DNA of 64,000 nucleotides, from contig NZ_AP025739.1 of the NCBI RefSeq assembly GCF_003574315.2, positions 3,596,001 to 3,660,000 of the forward strand. The letters run 5' to 3'. This document shows, one piece after another, positions 3,250 through 64,000 of this stretch. The first letter of the stretch is position 1. Every line of letters begins with the position of its first letter. Under the pieces are notes generated by a model, which ran no database searches, was not told where the DNA came from, and saw only the letters and a program-made list of their open reading frames with translations. Both the position numbers and the translations under genes were made by a program. The stretch is from Capsulimonas corticalis. GTDB taxonomy: Bacteria; Armatimonadota; Armatimonadia; Armatimonadales; Capsulimonadaceae.

Positions 3250-3384
3250 GGCCCTCACCCCCCTGCCCCCTCTCCCAATTCTGGGAGAGGGGGAGTCAGA
3301 GGGAATTTTATTTGGATCTTTGATCCAACTCTTAACCGTCTCCTAGAATTGGGAGAGGGTGGCCCGGAGGGCCGGGTGAGGGCC
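3250..3384. repeat. Dispersed hairpin element A, copy 1
   Basis: The ends are perfect 11-bp inverted repeats, GGCCCTCACCC (3250-3260) and GGGTGAGGGCC (3374-3384). Inside are two further stems, one around CTCTCCCAATTCTGGGAGAG and one around TTGGATCTTTGATCCAA. The same arrangement recurs at 27973-28122 and 35085-35238, and a left-end fragment at 46661-46708. It occupies the nagB-to-symporter gap, so it may tune distal expression of the operon. Confidence 0.8.
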
Positions 3385-3390
3385 GCTCTG

Positions 3391-7386: not shown

Positions 7387-8181
7387 CTAGTAGGGATCGC
7401 CGTATCCAATCGCCTGGTAAGCGGTGGGGATATAGACATTCTTCGCCCAGCTAATCTGACCCTTGCCCATTGCCTTGACATGGCCGTCGCAGAACAGCAC
7501 GCTGCAGTGGGCGTGGTGGCGGTAGCGCGGCATGGCGCCGAAGGGCCATCCGGGCTGGGAGCCCGCCGGCACATCGGAGTCGTACGCCAGATCGGCGTGG
7601 GCTTCCGGAGCGGTGCCGTCGACGACGCCGTTCAGGAATTGCGCCCAGTTCCACTGGCCGACCTCAATGAACGGTTCGCCGTTGGGCTTGTTCGTAGCGG
7701 GATCAACCGGCGCGACGCCCTTTTCCACGACCTGGATTCGCTCGGCGGGGGTGTCGATCTCCGCCAGGGTCGCGCTGGGCTTTCCGAAGGAATTGCAGAG
7801 CGCGAGATTGATTCCGTACTCATCGACTTGCGGAGTGGGGAACGAAGGGCAGTCCCAAACGCCGCCCTGTCCGTTGTGGACAGCGCCGGAGCCGGTGGTC
7901 GCGCCGTTCTTGACGTAGGGGTAGACAGCGTTCTGCCAATCGAAGAAGTCCGCCGCGCCGACCGGCTTATATTGACCGATGGGATATGTCTCGTCGGCGT
8001 CCTGGGTGTACTGCATTAACGCAAGGCCCATTTGCTTCTCGTTGGAGATACACATGGTCTGGCGGGCCTTCTCACGAGCCTGGGCGAAGACCGGGAATAG
8101 TATTGCTGCGAGAATCGCTATAATTGCGATAACGACGAGCAATTCAATAAGGGTAAAGGCTTTAATTCGAAGCGATTTCAT
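7387..8181 (-). CDS. DUF1559-type pseudopilin leading the chitin operon
   Basis: Starts at ATG 8181 with AAGAGG about 8 nt upstream, giving 264 residues. A short basic leader MKSLRIKA precedes the prepilin peptidase site and the hydrophobic helix [20 protein letters not shown]. The conserved [13 protein letters not shown] continues the helix. The C-terminal half carries the H-X9-DG signature as [13 protein letters not shown]. Such proteins are processed by prepilin peptidase and are thought to act as type II/IV pilus-like subunits or secreted surface proteins. It is the first gene of the chitinase operon. The same arrangement occurs at the rhamnosidase operon. Confidence 0.92.
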
Positions 8182-21658: not shown

Positions 21659-22555
21659 CTATCGTGTGCTGAATGTCACCGCAAACTGACTATTCCCTGT
21701 CCCCGCAGCCATGCCGCCATTGGCGGCGCAGTCGGGCAGGGCCGGCGAGCCGTCTTCGTTACAGTCTTCGGCGGCGGCGACATATCCTCCAGAGACGGAT
21801 GTCCCGCGATACCACTTGGCGTGGCAGTCGGTCATCAGATAGTTAGAGCCATCCATATGCAGGCCCGTTTTGGCGGCAAAGCCTTCGCCATAGGGCGGAA
21901 TCAGCACGGAATTCGTGCAGTCTCGTTTGCCCAGGCAGCCGGTCATCAGGTTGCCGCCCTGTCCGTTACCCCCGCGAAATGGGTAAACGCCTCCGCCGGG
22001 GTTGCCGTTGCTGACGCTGGAGGCGACGCCGTTGAGGCCGCCGTTCTCGCCAATATCGGTGATGGGACCATAAATCCCATGCACTTCACACAGCAGCACC
22101 GTGTTTGCCGGAGCCACGAGAGCCGCGATGGACTGCCCGGCGACTCGATTATCAGAAGAGGGAATGTCTGTGCGCAGGAAATTGAGATTGCCGGCGTAGG
22201 AAACGGGATAAGAAACGACGCTGTTCGCGGGGTTCGTCATCTGTGAGGTCGGATCATCGGGGCAGTGAAATACGCCGGTGCTCTTGACGTACGGATAAAC
22301 CGTTCCCGCCCAGCCCTGTCCTAACGATCCGGCGAGCGGGCCGGTGGGGAAATTCTCGTCGTAATCCTGATTGTACTGGGTGACGCCGAGGCCGATCTGC
22401 TTCATATTGGACAGACACGAAATTTGGCGCGCCTTTTCGCGCGCCTTCGCAAAGACTGGAAAGAGAATTGCTGCGAGAATCGCTATGATTGCGATAACTA
22501 CTAATAACTCAATGAGTGTGAATCCACTCCGCGATCGGATTGCATGGGTTGACAT
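21659..22555 (-). CDS. DUF1559-type pseudopilin leading the rhamnosidase operon
   Basis: 298 residues, ATG 22555 with AAGGAG 7 nt upstream. The leader [11 protein letters not shown] ends at the prepilin cleavage site before [46 protein letters not shown] follows as in all copies here. Unlike the copies at 7387 and 62153, the H-X9-DG motif reads H-X9-DC ([18 protein letters not shown]), a small but notable change. Four extra Cys in the C-terminal half suggest disulfides outside the cell. It is the first gene of the PhyH/rhamnosidase operon and divergent from the AraC regulator. Confidence 0.92.
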
Positions 22556-27972: not shown

Positions 27973-28122
27973 GGCCCTCACCCCCCCCGCCCCCTCTCCC
28001 AATTTTGGGAGAGGGGGAGTCAGAGGGATTTTTTTGATTTGGATCAAAGATCCAAATCTTAATCTCTTACTCCTAACCCTCTCCCCGAATGAAGAGAGTT
28101 GGCGAAGGGCCGGGTGAGAGCC
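27973..28122. repeat. Dispersed hairpin element A, copy 2
   Basis: It begins GGCCCTCACCCC and ends CCGGGTGAGAGCC, with the internal stem CTCTCCCAATTTTGGGAGAG as in copy 1 and a TTGGATC...GATCCAA stem. It fills the space between the adaptor and pump genes, an operon-internal position shared with copy 1. Confidence 0.78.
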
Positions 28123-35084: not shown

Positions 35085-35238
35085 GGCCCTCACCCCCCAG
35101 CCCCCTCTCCCAATTTTGGGAGAGGGGGAGTCAGAGGGAGTTAGCATTTAAGTCATAAGATCTTTTGGATCTTTGATCCAACTCTTAACCCTCGCCCAGA
35201 CCTTTGGGAGAGGGTGGCCCGGAGGGTCGGGTGAGAGC
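35085..35238. repeat. Dispersed hairpin element A, copy 3
   Basis: Starts GGCCCTCACCC and ends TCGGGTGAGAGC. It has the internal stem CTCTCCCAATTTTGGGAGAG and TTGGATCTTTGATCCAA, as in copies 1 and 2. It lies between convergent genes and overlaps neither. Confidence 0.78.
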
Positions 35239-35240
35239 TC

Positions 35241-36147: not shown

Positions 36148-37584
36148 TTAGCTCAGGTTGAGCGCCAGCAGACGAAGTTCGGACATCTCCTCCATCGCGT
36201 AGCGCACGCCCTCACGCCCAAATCCCGAGCCTTTCACGCCCCCGTACGGCATATGATCCACCCGGTAGGACGGCGTGTCGTTCGCAATGACGCCGCCGAC
36301 CTCCAGCCGATCGAACGCGCGATAGATCCGATGGATGTCGTTCGTGAAGACGCCTGTCTGCAAGCCATAGTCCGAATCGTTGGCTCTGTCCAGCGCTTCC
36401 TCGAAGTCGTCGTACGGGGTGAGCGTCACGACCGGTCCAAAGATCTCCTCGCGCTCAGCCTTCATCTCGGTGTTTGTGTCGGTCAGAATGATGGGGGCGA
36501 TACGCCGTGGGTCGGCGGGAGCGATGTCGCCCAGAAGGAGGCGCGCCCCGCCGTCCAGCGCTTCTCGCACGCACTCCAGAATTCGGACGCCGCCCGCTTC
36601 CGTGATGACCGGACCGAGGTCCGCCGTCTCGTCCAGAGGATCGCCCAGCCGCAAATCACGCGACAGGGCGACGAACCGCTGGGTAAAGGCGTCAAAGATC
36701 GGACGGTGGACCAGCAGACGCTGGGTGGAGATGCAGACCTGTCCGGCGTAGGCGAAGGCGCTGGCGACGCATTTGGGGACGACCATTTCGAGATCGGCGT
36801 CCTCATGGACAATCGTGGCGGCGTTTCCGCCGAGCTCCAGCGTCACACGCTTCCGGTTCGCCTTCGCCTTCAATTCCCAGCCGATGCGCGCGCTGCCGGT
36901 GAACGACAGCACCGCGACGCGCGGATCGAGCGCCAATCGTTCGCCGAGCGCCGGTTCAGTATGGATGACATTGAATGCCCCGACGGGAAGTCCGGCTTCG
37001 GCGATGACTTCCGCCAGCAGCAGCGCCGTCAGCGGCGTTTGATGCGCGGGCTTTAGCACCACCGGCGCGCCGACGGCGAGCGCCGGGGCGACTTTGTGCG
37101 CGACCAGATTGAGAGGGAAATTGAACGGCGTGATCGCGCCGACCACGCCCGAGGGAAACCGCCGCGTGATCCCGATCCGCCCTTGCGACGACTCAATCCG
37201 ATCCAGCGGGATCTGCTCTCCCTGTCCAAATCGCCGCGCCTCTTCGGCGGCGATCTGAAACGTGTGAACGGCGCGTCCGACTTCGCCGCGCGCATCCCGG
37301 ATCGGCTTCCCCGCCTCACGCGCGATCGTCACCGCGATCTCCTCCGCCCGCGCGACGAGTCCCGCATGGATCTTGTCTAGCGCTCCGCCCCGCACCGCAT
37401 CCGTCAGGGCGCGAAACGGCTCCCGCGCCGCATACGCGGCGGCGATGGCGTCCTCCATCTCCTGAACCGCGCCCCGGTAAAGATGTCCGACGGACGTCCC
37501 GTCCCAAGGGGAGACAATTGTGTCGACTTCCGAGGTCGCGCGCCACTGACTGGCGATGTAGAGGGAGCGAACTTCGCTGTTCAT
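36148..37584 (-). CDS. NAD(P)-dependent aldehyde dehydrogenase
   Basis: 478 residues of the ALDH superfamily. Visible are TPFNFPLNLVAHKVAPAL, the Glu of LELGGNAA, the nucleophile Cys of GQVCISTQR and PYGGVKGSGFGREG near the C-terminus. The sequence is closer to lactaldehyde or GapN-like non-phosphorylating enzymes than to betaine ALDH, but the substrate is not certain. It starts 14 bp from element B1. The preceding gene (glmS) is on the same strand, so B1 lies between them. Confidence 0.9.
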   Translation of the reverse strand: MNSEVRSLYIASQWRATSEVDTIVSPWDGTSVGHLYRGAVQEMEDAIAAAYAAREPFRALTDAVRGGALDKIHAGLVARAEEIAVTIAREAGKPIRDARGEVGRAVHTFQIAAEEARRFGQGEQIPLDRIESSQGRIGITRRFPSGVVGAITPFNFPLNLVAHKVAPALAVGAPVVLKPAHQTPLTALLLAEVIAEAGLPVGAFNVIHTEPALGERLALDPRVAVLSFTGSARIGWELKAKANRKRVTLELGGNAATIVHEDADLEMVVPKCVASAFAYAGQVCISTQRLLVHRPIFDAFTQRFVALSRDLRLGDPLDETADLGPVITEAGGVRILECVREALDGGARLLLGDIAPADPRRIAPIILTDTNTEMKAEREEIFGPVVTLTPYDDFEEALDRANDSDYGLQTGVFTNDIHRIYRAFDRLEVGGVIANDTPSYRVDHMPYGGVKGSGFGREGVRYAMEEMSELRLLALNLS

Positions 37585-37597
37585 AATGAGAAGGTCT

Positions 37598-37804
37598 CCT
37601 CAAACCCACGCTGGCGTTTTGGGTGGCAAACCCACCCCGGCGCTTCGCGCCACCCCTCCCGCCGACGGGAAGGGTGATTTCAGAGCGTGTTATCGCAAGC
37701 GGCTTTCGTCAGGGGCAATCCTACCAACCCTTCCCGTCGGCGGGAGGGGTGGCGCGAAGCGCCGGGGTGGGTTTGCCACCCAAAACGCCAGCGTGGGTTT
37801 GAGG
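37598..37804. repeat. Element B, copy 1: 207 bp with perfect 78-bp inverted arms
   Basis: Bases 37598-37675 and 37727-37804 are exact reverse complements of each other, enclosing a 51-bp loop. Each arm has inner hairpins, for example GGCGCTTCGCGCC and CCCGCCGACGGG. The loop is nearly identical to that of the copy at 57550-57700, which faces the other way. It lies between glmS and the aldehyde dehydrogenase gene. Confidence 0.93.
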
Positions 37805-37810
37805 ATGCTC

Positions 37811-39658
<1,848 letters not shown>

Positions 39659-56302: not shown

Positions 56303-57025
56303 ATGTCGCTTTCTTCCACCGCCTCCTGGCGGCTATCCGTATTGATGCCGGTCTACAACGAAGAAGGGACGGTGGCGCAGATCATTCAGGATGTCCTCGC
56401 CGTGCCGCTGGATCTGGAGCTGATCGTGGTGGACGACGGCTCGACCGACCTGACCGCCTCCATCCTCCACGCGCTTCCCGCCGATCCCGGCGACCGTCTC
56501 AAGATCATCTACGCGCCCCGAAACGCCGGAAAAGGCGCGGCGATCCGTATCGCGCTCAGCCACGCCACGGGGGATGTGGTGGTGGTGCAGGACGCCGACC
56601 GTGAATATGACCCCATGGACTTCGTACCCATGCTGGATCAGATCAAAGCAGGCGCGGTCGTGGTCTACGGCACACGGTTGTCGCCCGAAGCGCTGCGACT
56701 GAACCAGGAAGGCGACCACGATAAGTTTTATCTGGCGCGCCGCCTGCTGCCCATATTGACGAATGTGCTTTATGGAACGTCGATCACCGATGAGGCGACG
56801 TGCTACAAGATGTTTCGCAGAGAAGTGCTTCTTTCGATCCCTCTGCGCTGCGAACGCTTCGATTTCTGCCCGGAAGTGACAGCGAAGATTGCCCGGCGCG
56901 GCTACCGAATCGTCGAGATCCCCATCCACTACCACTCCCGCACCGCCGCCGAAGGCAAAAAAATCGGCTGGCGCGACGCCAAGGACGCCGTTTGGGCGCT
57001 CCTCAAATTCCGCTTCTTCAACTGA
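56303..57025 (+). CDS. Family 2 glycosyltransferase (DPM1-like)
   Basis: 240 residues with the GT-A opening LSVLMPVYNEEGTVAQII, the DDGSTD motif (VVDDGSTDLTAS), the DxD-like segment VVQDADREYDP and the ending IPIHYHSRTAAEGKKIGWRD. There are no C-terminal membrane helices, so it is likely a cytoplasmic polyprenyl-phosphate sugar transferase or a soluble GT2. The metal/donor residues are intact. It is followed 10 bp later by the GNAT gene. Confidence 0.93.
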   Translation: MSLSSTASWRLSVLMPVYNEEGTVAQIIQDVLAVPLDLELIVVDDGSTDLTASILHALPADPGDRLKIIYAPRNAGKGAAIRIALSHATGDVVVVQDADREYDPMDFVPMLDQIKAGAVVVYGTRLSPEALRLNQEGDHDKFYLARRLLPILTNVLYGTSITDEATCYKMFRREVLLSIPLRCERFDFCPEVTAKIARRGYRIVEIPIHYHSRTAAEGKKIGWRDAKDAVWALLKFRFFN

Positions 57026-57035
57026 GACGACTCTT

Positions 57036-57491
57036 ATGACCGATCTGTTCATCGCCCTCGCCGAGACCGAAGAAGACCGCGTCGCCTGCTTCGCCATTCG
57101 CCGCGAAGTCTTCGTCGTTGAGCAGAACGTCCCCGCCGAATTGGAGTGGGATGAGCACGACGCCGAGGCCCTGCACATCCTCGCCCGCGACGCCCATTCT
57201 CATGCCCCTCTCGGAACGGCGCGCCTCGTGCATTACAAACCCGGGATCGTGAAGATCGGCCGCGTCTGCGTGCTCGCCGCCGCGCGCGGCCGGGGAGTCG
57301 GCGCGTCGATCATGGAGTTCGCCTGGGGGGAGTCGCTGCGGCGCGGATACACGGAGGCGCAGCTGAGCGCGCAGGTGGCGGTTCTGGATTTTTACGAGCG
57401 GCTGGGTTATGAGAGCTTTGGCGAAGAGTTTATGGACGCGGGGATTTTGCACCGGATGATGCGGAAGAGCCCCATCCCCCCGCCTCGCTGA
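57036..57491 (+). CDS. GNAT N-acetyltransferase (ElaA-like)
   Basis: 151 residues starting at ATG 57036. The acetyl-CoA site reads VLAAARGRGVGASIMEF (motif A, R/Q-x-x-G-x-G/A). The C-terminal SAQVAVLDFYERLGYESFGEEFMDAGI (in parts: AQVAVLDFYERLGYES, then FMDAGILH) is the ElaA signature. The substrate is unknown. It lies in an operon with the GT2 gene. Confidence 0.92.
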   Translation: MTDLFIALAETEEDRVACFAIRREVFVVEQNVPAELEWDEHDAEALHILARDAHSHAPLGTARLVHYKPGIVKIGRVCVLAAARGRGVGASIMEFAWGESLRRGYTEAQLSAQVAVLDFYERLGYESFGEEFMDAGILHRMMRKSPIPPPR

Positions 57492-57549
57492 GGCTCGGCT
57501 TCCCCAATTCGCTTCGACCCTGGCAAACCCACCCCGGCGCTTCGCCCTT

Positions 57550-57700
57550 GCAAACCCACCCCGGCCCTTCGGGCCACCCCTCCCGCCGACGGGAAGGGTT
57601 TGTAGGATTGCCTCTGACGAAAGCCGCCTGCGATAACACGCTCTGAAATAACCCTTCCCGTCGGCGGGAGGGGTGGCCCGAAGGGCCGGGGTGGGTTTGC
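57550..57700. repeat. Element B, copy 2: 51-bp perfect inverted arms, reversed orientation
   Basis: Bases 57550-57600 and 57650-57700 are exact reverse complements around a 49-bp loop. The loop is the reverse complement of the B1 loop with about two substitutions and one or two indels. The arm hairpin GGCGC-TTC-GCGCC of B1 is GGCCC-TTC-GGGCC here, a compensated base-pair change. A partial tandem arm lies at 57522-57549. It lies in a gap with no gene (57492-57793). Confidence 0.92.
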
Positions 57701-57793: not shown

Positions 57794-58480
57794 CTACTCT
57801 TCCAGCCGCTCGCGCTTCTCGGGGTGGCGGAAAATGAGGTGCCGGAATTGGGGCCAGTCTTCGAGGTCCTGGGCGTAGTCTTCGGGATCGTCGGTGAGGA
57901 AGTATTCGTAGCCGGTGAACACGTGGTCGAAGGGCAGGTCGACGGCGTCGCAGAGGCCGTCGATGGCGCTTCCGACGAACTTGCCGGCGGTGGCGCGGGC
58001 GTCGGCGAGGGCTTTCGCGAGCGCTTCGGGTGTGGTTTGCAGGATGCCGGCGAGCGCGGTGGGATCGCCGATGTACAGCTCGGCTTCTTCGGGGGTCGAG
58101 GCGACGCTGGCGGGATTATCGGCGAATCTATCGACGACGCGGCCGGATTCCGAGTAGTTGTATCCCCAGTGGATGTCGTCGGCCACCCAGAGCTCCAGCG
58201 CCGGAGCGTCCAGCGCCTTGGAGAGCAGGCGGGTGAGCAGGCCGCTGTCGGCCCAATCTTCGACATAGACCGTCACCCAGCCGGGCTCAGCCGCGCCGCT
58301 GACGATCACGCCATACCAGTCGTCGTCGTCTGGGAGAAGATCGTCGTTGTCGGCGACCTGCGAGGCCTGGTCGTCGCGCTCCAGCCGGAAGCCTTCGTCC
58401 GCGAACGCATGGATCACCTCTCGGCGCACCGCGTCCGCATCGTCCGTTCGAATATTGATGTTGATGTAATAGCCGCCCAT
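57794..58480 (-). CDS. Hypothetical protein, 228 aa
   Basis: A soluble, very acidic protein. It opens YYININIRTDDADAVRREV, and has an acidic patch (NDDLLPDDDDWYG) and a later FDHVFTGYEYFLTDDPEDYAQDLEDW (in parts: FDHVFTGYEYFL, then DPEDYAQDLEDW). I do not recognise the family. There is no signal peptide. It stands 7 bp beyond the MFS gene's stop on the same strand, so the two may be co-transcribed. Confidence 0.7.
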   Translation of the reverse strand: MGGYYININIRTDDADAVRREVIHAFADEGFRLERDDQASQVADNDDLLPDDDDWYGVIVSGAAEPGWVTVYVEDWADSGLLTRLLSKALDAPALELWVADDIHWGYNYSESGRVVDRFADNPASVASTPEEAELYIGDPTALAGILQTTPEALAKALADARATAGKFVGSAIDGLCDAVDLPFDHVFTGYEYFLTDDPEDYAQDLEDWPQFRHLIFRHPEKRERLEE

Positions 58481-62152: not shown

Positions 62153-62884
62153 TTACTTGTAGAGGTTCTGCGAGTAGTTCAAGACCGTATAGCCGCTGGC
62201 GTCGCTCGGTCCGGTGCTGAACGGCGTGTTGTCCAGCGTCCACATATTCACCGTGCCGCCGGCGCCGCCGTCGGTAGCGTCCAGGGTGGACAGGGGCCGC
62301 ATGGATTTCGCGTGGCCGTCCAGGAAGAGGAAGTTCGCGAAGCCGGTGTGTCCAGAGAACAGGTTGCCCTGATGATCCGTGGCGACGGTCGGCTGCGCCC
62401 ATCCCCAGGTCAGGTCCACATAGAAATCGGTGTACTTGGTGGTGCTCTCCACCACGCCGATCGTCTGGGAGGGAGCCTGCAAGCTCGCCAGCGAGACCGT
62501 CGGGCTGGTGGGGTTATTCAGGTCGGTGAACGGGCGGTTGGAGCCCGTGTTCACGGAGTAAGACACGTTGCCGATGCCTTCCGTATCCGCCTGATCCTTC
62601 TTTGGATTGGACGGGCACTGGAGCACGGCGTAGCTCTTAACATACGGCTGGCAGAGGAAATGCCAGTTCTTGCCGTTATAAGCCGTGTAGCGCGGCATCA
62701 GCAGCTCATCATAGTCCTGCGAATACTGCATGATCGCCAGACCGATCTGCTTTTCGTTCGACAAGCAGGCCGTCTGCCGGGCCTTTTCGCGCGCCTTGGC
62801 GAAAACGGGGAAGAGGATCGCCGCCAGGATGGCAATGATCGCGATCACGACGAGAAGCTCGATGAGAGTAAAACCTTTGCGCAT
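62153..62884 (-). CDS. DUF1559-type pseudopilin, stand-alone
   Basis: 243 residues. A very short leader (MRKG) precedes [20 protein letters not shown], with [19 protein letters not shown]. The C-terminal motif [17 protein letters not shown] fits H-X9-DG. Here, unlike the copies at 7387 and 21659, no CAZyme gene follows on the strand, and the gene is convergent with azoR. The upstream region (62885-63475) is non-coding. Confidence 0.92.
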
Positions 62885-63475: not shown

Positions 63476-64000
63476 ATGTCTCACATTACCACTCGGCCAC
63501 GCTCCCGCACGGCCTTCACCCTGATTGAGCTCCTCGTCGTCATCGCCATTATAGCGATTCTCGCGGCGATACTCTTCCCGGTTTTCGCCCAAGCTCGGGA
63601 AAAGGCGCGCGCCGCCAGCTGTCTTTCAAACCTAAAGCAAAATGCCTTGGGGATCATGCAATACACTCAGGATAATGATGAGAAGGTTCCGGCTGGGCAG
63701 TATTGCGCGAGAGGTGCACAAAGTGTATTTTGTGATGAATCGCCCGGATCAATCCGTACATGGGTTGACGCTGTTCAACCATATACAAAAAATTTGGATA
63801 TCACTCATTGTCCAGATAACCCAAAAAATCCCTACGGTTTAGATTATCCGCCGAACGCGCAATATATTACTCCCTTCGTATTGCCATCATACGGCTACAA
63901 TCAAACTTATCTCAATCCTGCTCCTGCTGATTGTACCGGACTTGCTGAAGATGATGCGCCTTGGGGTTTTCCAATATCCATTGCTGCCATAGAAGCACCG
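63476..64000 (+). CDS. DUF1559-type pseudopilin, 5' part, runs off the window
   Basis: ATG 63476, open to base 64000 (175 codons). The leader [13 protein letters not shown] is followed by [20 protein letters not shown], then [19 protein letters not shown] and [16 protein letters not shown]. The sequence after residue 50 has AT-rich codons (for example GTATTTTGTGATGAATCG), unlike the copies at 7387 and 21659. The C-terminal H-X9-DG motif lies outside the window. AAGGAC lies 11 nt before the start. Confidence 0.9.

Follow-up and report, generated by a model that had tools for sequence, protein, structure and literature searches.

For many families of REP-like repeats, and likewise for the palindromic elements of Rickettsia, we know of no enzyme. 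REPINs, which are mobilized by RAYT/TnpA-REP (PMC3116915, PMC8266576), consist of two inverted REP hairpins around a spacer, are present in high copy number and mostly outside genes, and the gene of their enzyme is flanked by the same REPs. The palindromes described in the following are like REPINs in each of these respects, and differ from them in the gene that their arms enclose.

The starting point is a palindrome, element B, in a stretch of 64,000 nucleotides of the Capsulimonas corticalis genome (the window). Element B is probably a non-autonomous member of a family of mobile palindromes linked to DUF559, a reading of the DNA sequence in which the DUF559 enzyme would have the mobilizing role. 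Since a nuclease gene is found repeatedly between palindromic arms, and its genomes also contain short copies that match, repeats of this type have a testable partner, and DUF559, the Pfam label of which still reads 'unknown function', gains a likely role.

Element B and its family in the genome

Element B is formed by a left arm (37597..37675, + strand, 79 nt), which is 100% complementary to the right arm (37727..37805, - strand), and by a loop of 51 nt (37676..37726, + strand) between them. The first-pass annotation had described exact inverse arms of 78 bp (37598-37804) around a 51-bp loop; both were confirmed, the arms being one base longer at each end. The left arm is made of a locus-specific outer layer (37597-37625) and of a REP arm found throughout the family (37626-37675), which carries two local hairpins, GGCGC-TTC-GCGCC and CCCTCCCG-CCGA-CGGGAAGGG, while the right arm is made of the inverted REP (37727-37776) and of the mirrored outer layer (37777-37805). 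The loop is conserved family-wide and resembles the inner end of a DUF559-bearing copy (see below). A GlmS-like gene (SIS and glutamine amidotransferase domains; 37811..39658, - strand) and an aldehyde dehydrogenase gene (36148..37584, - strand) are separated by 226 bp, almost all of which the element occupies, the stop codon of the former being 5 bp and the start codon of the latter 12 bp from it. In an Rfam scan of the window a tRNA alone passed the thresholds, and a known RNA family was rejected as a reading of element B.

A second copy in the window has perfect arms of 51 nt (57550..57600, + strand, and 57650..57700, - strand), a further outer unit at 57523-57549 and a loop of 49 nt (57601..57649, - strand) oriented opposite to that of element B. 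When one of them is inverted, the 152-nt cores of the two show 95% identity; the conservation of the loop in the opposite orientation, already remarked in the first-pass annotation, holds with two substitutions and small differences at the ends. Two ORFs would converge on this copy, one for a GNAT-type acetyltransferase (56889-57491, + strand) and one at 57794-58480 (- strand), a gene context that is less sure than that of element B, the crude gene finder favouring an ORF at 57018-57452. Other repeats are also found in the window. The palindromes of family A (3250-3385, 27974-28120 and 35085-35240) have other arms (GGCCCTCACCCCCC..CCCCCTCTCCCAATTTTGGGAGAGGGGG) and a GGATC..GATCC motif in the loop, and also belong to the REP-loop-inverted-REP class; a repeat of 170-180 bp is present at four sites with 68-76% identity (7976-8157, 22341-22522, 62691-62872 and, inverted, 63512-63683).

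A genome-wide search for copies, as the first-pass annotation had proposed, was carried out on the single Capsulimonas contig of 7,645,051 bp and revealed a family far larger than the two copies of the window, namely family B, the 152-bp core of which (REP, loop, inverted REP) is present in about 100-140 copies, most of them outside genes. With element B as the query about 42 copies of the core were scored, about 40 of them being further copies at E < 1e-50; the 16 cores of one contiguous 864-kb stretch extrapolate to about 140 in the genome; and the pattern of the arm unit gave 114 forward and 102 reverse matches, against 0 for the reversed control. The repetition of element B is far beyond chance. 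In a genome of the same genus (G001) about 40 copies of a similar core are present.

Every family-B arm consists of one REP, in which there are two local hairpins. In the outer stem there are four main alleles (GGCGC/GCGCC, GGCCC/GGGCC, CGGCC/GGCCG and CGCGC/GCGCG), and its two sides covary, with 97.5% of the cells paired against 87.3% after shuffling, and 32 double-changed cells against 13. When 76 distinct copies were read for the comparison of their arms, the inner arms turned out to be identical in 23 of them and to differ at up to 26% of the arm positions in the remainder; the mean difference was 5.7% within one element and 10.9% between elements, which none of 10,000 permutations reached. 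Thus, the earlier statement that such arms cannot persist without gene conversion, recent spread or selection stands in part, in that the arms of one element are more alike than those of different elements, but is weakened by the many mismatched arm alleles. Indeed, in many copies the left and right alleles are unlike, and a long perfect arm results where the same allele is present on both sides. The layers outside the core are locus-specific and often mirrored on both sides, including those of element B; at C1:3971531 even a shell with a deletion is mirrored on the other side. The mirrored outer layers fit both arm-to-arm template switching and nested insertion.

As for their placement, 17 of 22 copies lie outside genes (12% expected) and 0 of 22 lie between divergent genes, compared with 79 divergent gaps of 331, both figures being based on an approximate gene finder. 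In an apparent arabinose gene cluster (L134; C1:662000-676000) several family-B copies occur in a stretch of about 9 kb, where they are placed at the junctions of genes or close to them. No selection for translatable loops was seen in family B, and the target-site duplication that the first-pass annotation had suggested looking for was not found in any of the family-B copies read.

The DUF559 gene within palindromic arms

At C1:1487638-1488345, a family-B copy carries its arms at 1487643 and 1488310, 667 bp apart instead of the usual distance of about 115 bp. The arms are inverse-identical at 51 of 51 positions and the same as those of the loop-bearing copies; the loop is replaced by a 603-bp insert with one ORF of 137 aa, which is a DUF559 protein (PF04480, E = 9e-35). 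There is at least one such gene-bearing copy among the matches listed, which extend to about 5.06 Mb (others may exist), and DUF559 is the only gene found inside family-B arms among these matches. In the nearest relative, the homologous DUF559 gene is next to a family-B palindrome and not within its arms. The inner ends of the insert resemble the loops, with best local scores of 33 and 34 against shuffled maxima of 23 and 25: 22 of 25 positions agree between the end beside the right arm and the best ordinary loop, and 20 of 22 between the other end and one loop. Because of this match, the ordinary family-B elements are best read as internally deleted derivatives, it would seem, of the gene-bearing form.

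The association of DUF559 genes with inverted arms is not confined to this copy. Within the order, 29 DUF559 loci could be tested, and 20 of them lie between inverted arms (at least 24 nt and 85% identity, no more than 450 bp away on either side), compared with 0 of 600 random positions, and by a graded bracket score 23 of 28 loci exceed the 99th percentile of random. In other phyla (Cyanobacteria, Chloroflexi, Bacteroidetes, Planctomycetes and others) bracketing was found, on genome contigs and with a looser threshold of 20 nt, in 29 of 77 DUF559 loci versus 5 of 271 shifted controls, so that about 60% of the DUF559 genes outside the order fail the test. The arm sequences vary from gene to gene, and mostly belong to one class, a C-rich stretch followed by a hairpin of the CCCTxxCCC...GGGxxAGGG type. 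The arrangement of family B, with a DUF559 gene within the arms of gene-less copies, has a second case in another genus, in which the arms of its DUF559 genes match 47 times in one genome (G006), seven times in another (G002) and not at all in three others; these matches are loop-bearing pairs, or lie around DUF559 genes, and those of G006 mostly form pairs with a loop between them, at a distance of about 115-130 bp.

Other layouts are also found. At some loci (L177, L293) the DUF559 gene lies between two complete palindromes instead of two single arms. At L293 (Sinorhizobium meliloti Ak57 pSymB, about 1340-2047) the flanking palindromes are of 114 nt, in opposite orientation and 96% identical, and we take them to be RIME-like. 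In E. coli H240 a 45-nt hairpin (1436-1480; TCACCTCATTCTGACAAAAGATTAAATCTTGTCAGAATGAGGTGA) is present upstream of the DUF559 gene, with no bracketing arms, and in phages there were three weak DUF559 matches and no more.

That the arms and the gene go together, as one unit that a given site may have or lack, is shown by relatives of the class, which are distinct from family B itself. In Nostocales, a unit of about 460 bp with arms and DUF559 is 72-89% identical among its copies and ends near the arms, the flanks mostly differing; two of these units (L234 and L256) have flanks in common and hence occupy the same site. Between sufB and sufC, which in Azospirillum thermophilum are 55 bp apart, Sphingomonas parapaucimobilis has the unit. 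In a planctomycete (L227, genome G061) the whole unit with its arms lies in frame within a mobA-like gene, the single ORF of 390 aa containing both the Pfam NTP_transf_3 and DUF559 domains; among relatives mobA is uninterrupted in G064 and G069, has a DUF559 unit in G062 and contains smaller inserts at the same place elsewhere, including, in G068, a 204-nt in-frame REP-loop-REP insert with the layout of element B. The mobA inserts are mostly in frame, with G070 as the exception. At L227, L333 and L334 the mobA insertion site is hypervariable by species, with a DUF559 unit, a short palindrome, remnants or nothing. An insertion polymorphism between Sinorhizobium K101 and C101, suggested by the hit table, was rejected, as the stretches are identical, and the Azospirillum strains have their DUF559 locus in common, without useful polymorphism.

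The first-pass proposal of a non-autonomous mobile element, MITE- or REPIN-like, is therefore supported by the number of copies, by the REP-loop-inverted-REP structure with covarying hairpins and by the extragenic location, and is further backed by the gene-bearing copy with the same arms and by the empty and occupied sites of relatives of the system.

Possible routes of spread

The structure model of the DUF559 protein of a Capsulimonas relative (pLDDT 87) has as its nearest solved folds 3hrl (an endonuclease-like protein of the gonococcus, itself a match to the DUF559 profile), then I-Bth0305I (E = 2e-4) and, more weakly, PvuRts1I and Vsr. The features of EDxHD/Vsr-type enzymes are found in DUF559 as the fold and the conserved D, E-x-D-G, H and D residues, and the protein of the Capsulimonas genome itself retains the residues that are invariant in two alignments. 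As judged from the model, DUF559 is a small EDxHD/Vsr-type nuclease folding like the homing nuclease I-Bth0305I and Vsr, in agreement with the assignment of a DUF559 gene to the EDxHD homing family in an earlier report (PMC9403480).

On these grounds, the nuclease seems fairly likely to act on a target or on the hairpin arms, the element being copied into the break during DNA repair, and short copies spreading in trans. The autonomous form would be a DUF559 gene between two inverted REP arms, and the non-autonomous form would have lost all that lies between the arms except about 50 bp of the inner ends. The DUF559 protein might recognize the hairpins of its own arms, or a target, and nick or cut the DNA there; repair or replication would then copy the element into the break, by which the short copies could spread in trans. 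The nested outer layers, the mosaic of arm alleles and the arm-to-arm similarity would be by-products of recombination or template switching between near-identical hairpins. The absence of a target-site duplication suits such a nuclease-and-repair route, without proving it.

Alternatively, DUF559 may be a passenger, or an independent homing or repair nuclease that prefers to lie, or is preferentially kept, between palindromes that spread otherwise, e.g. by recombination, replication slippage or another enzyme. Such a role would agree with the DUF559 genes between two complete palindromes and the many unbracketed ones, as well as with the fact that insertion sequences are known to target REPs (PMC1525189). 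It would also agree with the methylation-linked effect of the Caulobacter DUF559 protein VsrA, which is reported to be linked (PMC12907096) to the SOS response of cells lacking a cytosine methyltransferase, so that not every DUF559 member need be a mobility enzyme. However, the arm sequence tends to be particular to each DUF559 gene, short copies with matching arms are present in the same genome in both cases examined (family B and G006), and the shared Nostocales unit stops at the arms, which makes this explanation unlikely.

The partner sought by the first-pass annotation was a cognate RAYT/TnpA-REP, and family B might have been spread by a Y1_Tnp enzyme of the REPIN/RAYT or 'TIRtron' kind, perhaps lost or acting in trans, with the DUF559 gene landing in one copy by chance. 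The general anatomy equals that of REPINs, and the genome contains five PF01797 (Y1_Tnp, RAYT-type) loci, three of which sit in long near-perfect inverted arms of other sequence (L030 at C1:2822448, L031 at C1:2171961 and L032 at C1:449029), like the 'TIRtrons' of Di Nocera 2013 (PMC3733652); some other palindromes of the 864-kb stretch resemble the arms of such loci. Short palindromes with arms like those of the three loci occur elsewhere in the genome, e.g. at C1:4412605 and 4454248. But family-B arms are found at 0 of the 5 Y1_Tnp loci of the genome, the gene inside such arms being DUF559, and in the PF01797 search of this genome and of 18 others the RAYTs carry arms of their own, not those of family B, so that RAYT was rejected as the partner. 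Furthermore, the arms read directly begin with GCAAACCC or similar and lack the GTAG tag at the foot of each REP, and DUF559 genes are bracketed again and again, by arms of many unrelated sequences, a pattern that a single chance capture cannot yield. A Y1_Tnp origin of family B is, accordingly, quite improbable.

That the palindromes are now immobile and kept by selection as RNA or DNA structures, such as terminators or mRNA stabilizers, is very improbable in spite of the strong covariation of the local hairpins and the avoidance of divergent promoter regions (0 of 22 copies), given the high copy number, the locus-specific nesting, the gene-bearing copy and the fact that sites at sufBC and mobA carry elements of this kind in some genomes and are empty in others; mobility would not, in any case, rule out a structural role.

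Comparison with known systems

The preferred reading, of a DUF559 nuclease that would mobilize the palindromes, has in the mainly open-access literature, as far as its texts were available, no earlier account: papers naming DUF559 and related searches gave no link to palindromic repeats, and a description of DUF559-linked mobile palindromes was not found. Among other repeats, the CGTC-tagged REPs (PMC3733652) are alike by description, being palindromic repeats without, as far as the authors could find, a dedicated transposase; RIME (Rhizobium-specific intergenic mosaic elements; Osteras 1995, as cited in PMC2573895) are alike, according to the citing paper, as GC-rich, intergenic double palindromes; and the Rickettsia palindromic elements (PMC10969869) are alike in their in-frame insertion in protein-coding genes, as in planctomycete mobA. 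It is quite possible, though somewhat less likely than the reading of family B, that the mobility enzymes missing for a very large class of palindromic repeats, found across bacterial phyla, are DUF559 nucleases, which would spread the repeats by hairpin-guided homing; this class would consist of GC-rich REPs of the CCCTCTCCC...GGGAGAGGG type and perhaps include RIME, CGTC and Rickettsia-type elements. If so, short palindromes would owe their spread in trans, in some cases in frame within genes, to a nuclease of the Vsr/EDxHD type and not to a transposase.

The marks of a MITE of a DDE-type transposon would be a target-site duplication and a transposase that shares its terminal repeats; family B shows no duplication in the copies read and only DUF559 within its arms among the matches listed. 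The EDxHD homing endonucleases (I-Bth0305I; PMC3943268, PMC9403480) and Vsr are alike as the nearest solved folds after 3hrl; I-Bth0305I, unlike DUF559, has an added DNA-binding region and resides in a group I intron (PMC3943268), whereas the DUF559 protein is a single small domain inside palindromic arms of which there are many gene-less copies. With respect to REPINs, an arm of family B measures 50-79 nt, contains two hairpins and lacks the GTAG tag, and the arms enclose DUF559, of the PD-(D/E)XK/EDxHD type, in place of a Y1 tyrosine transposase. As the REPIN-like anatomy is already known, what is new is the partner enzyme, which is of a different class and, if its role is the one proposed, would define a kind of mobile element using a homing-type nuclease and hairpin arms in place of a transposase.
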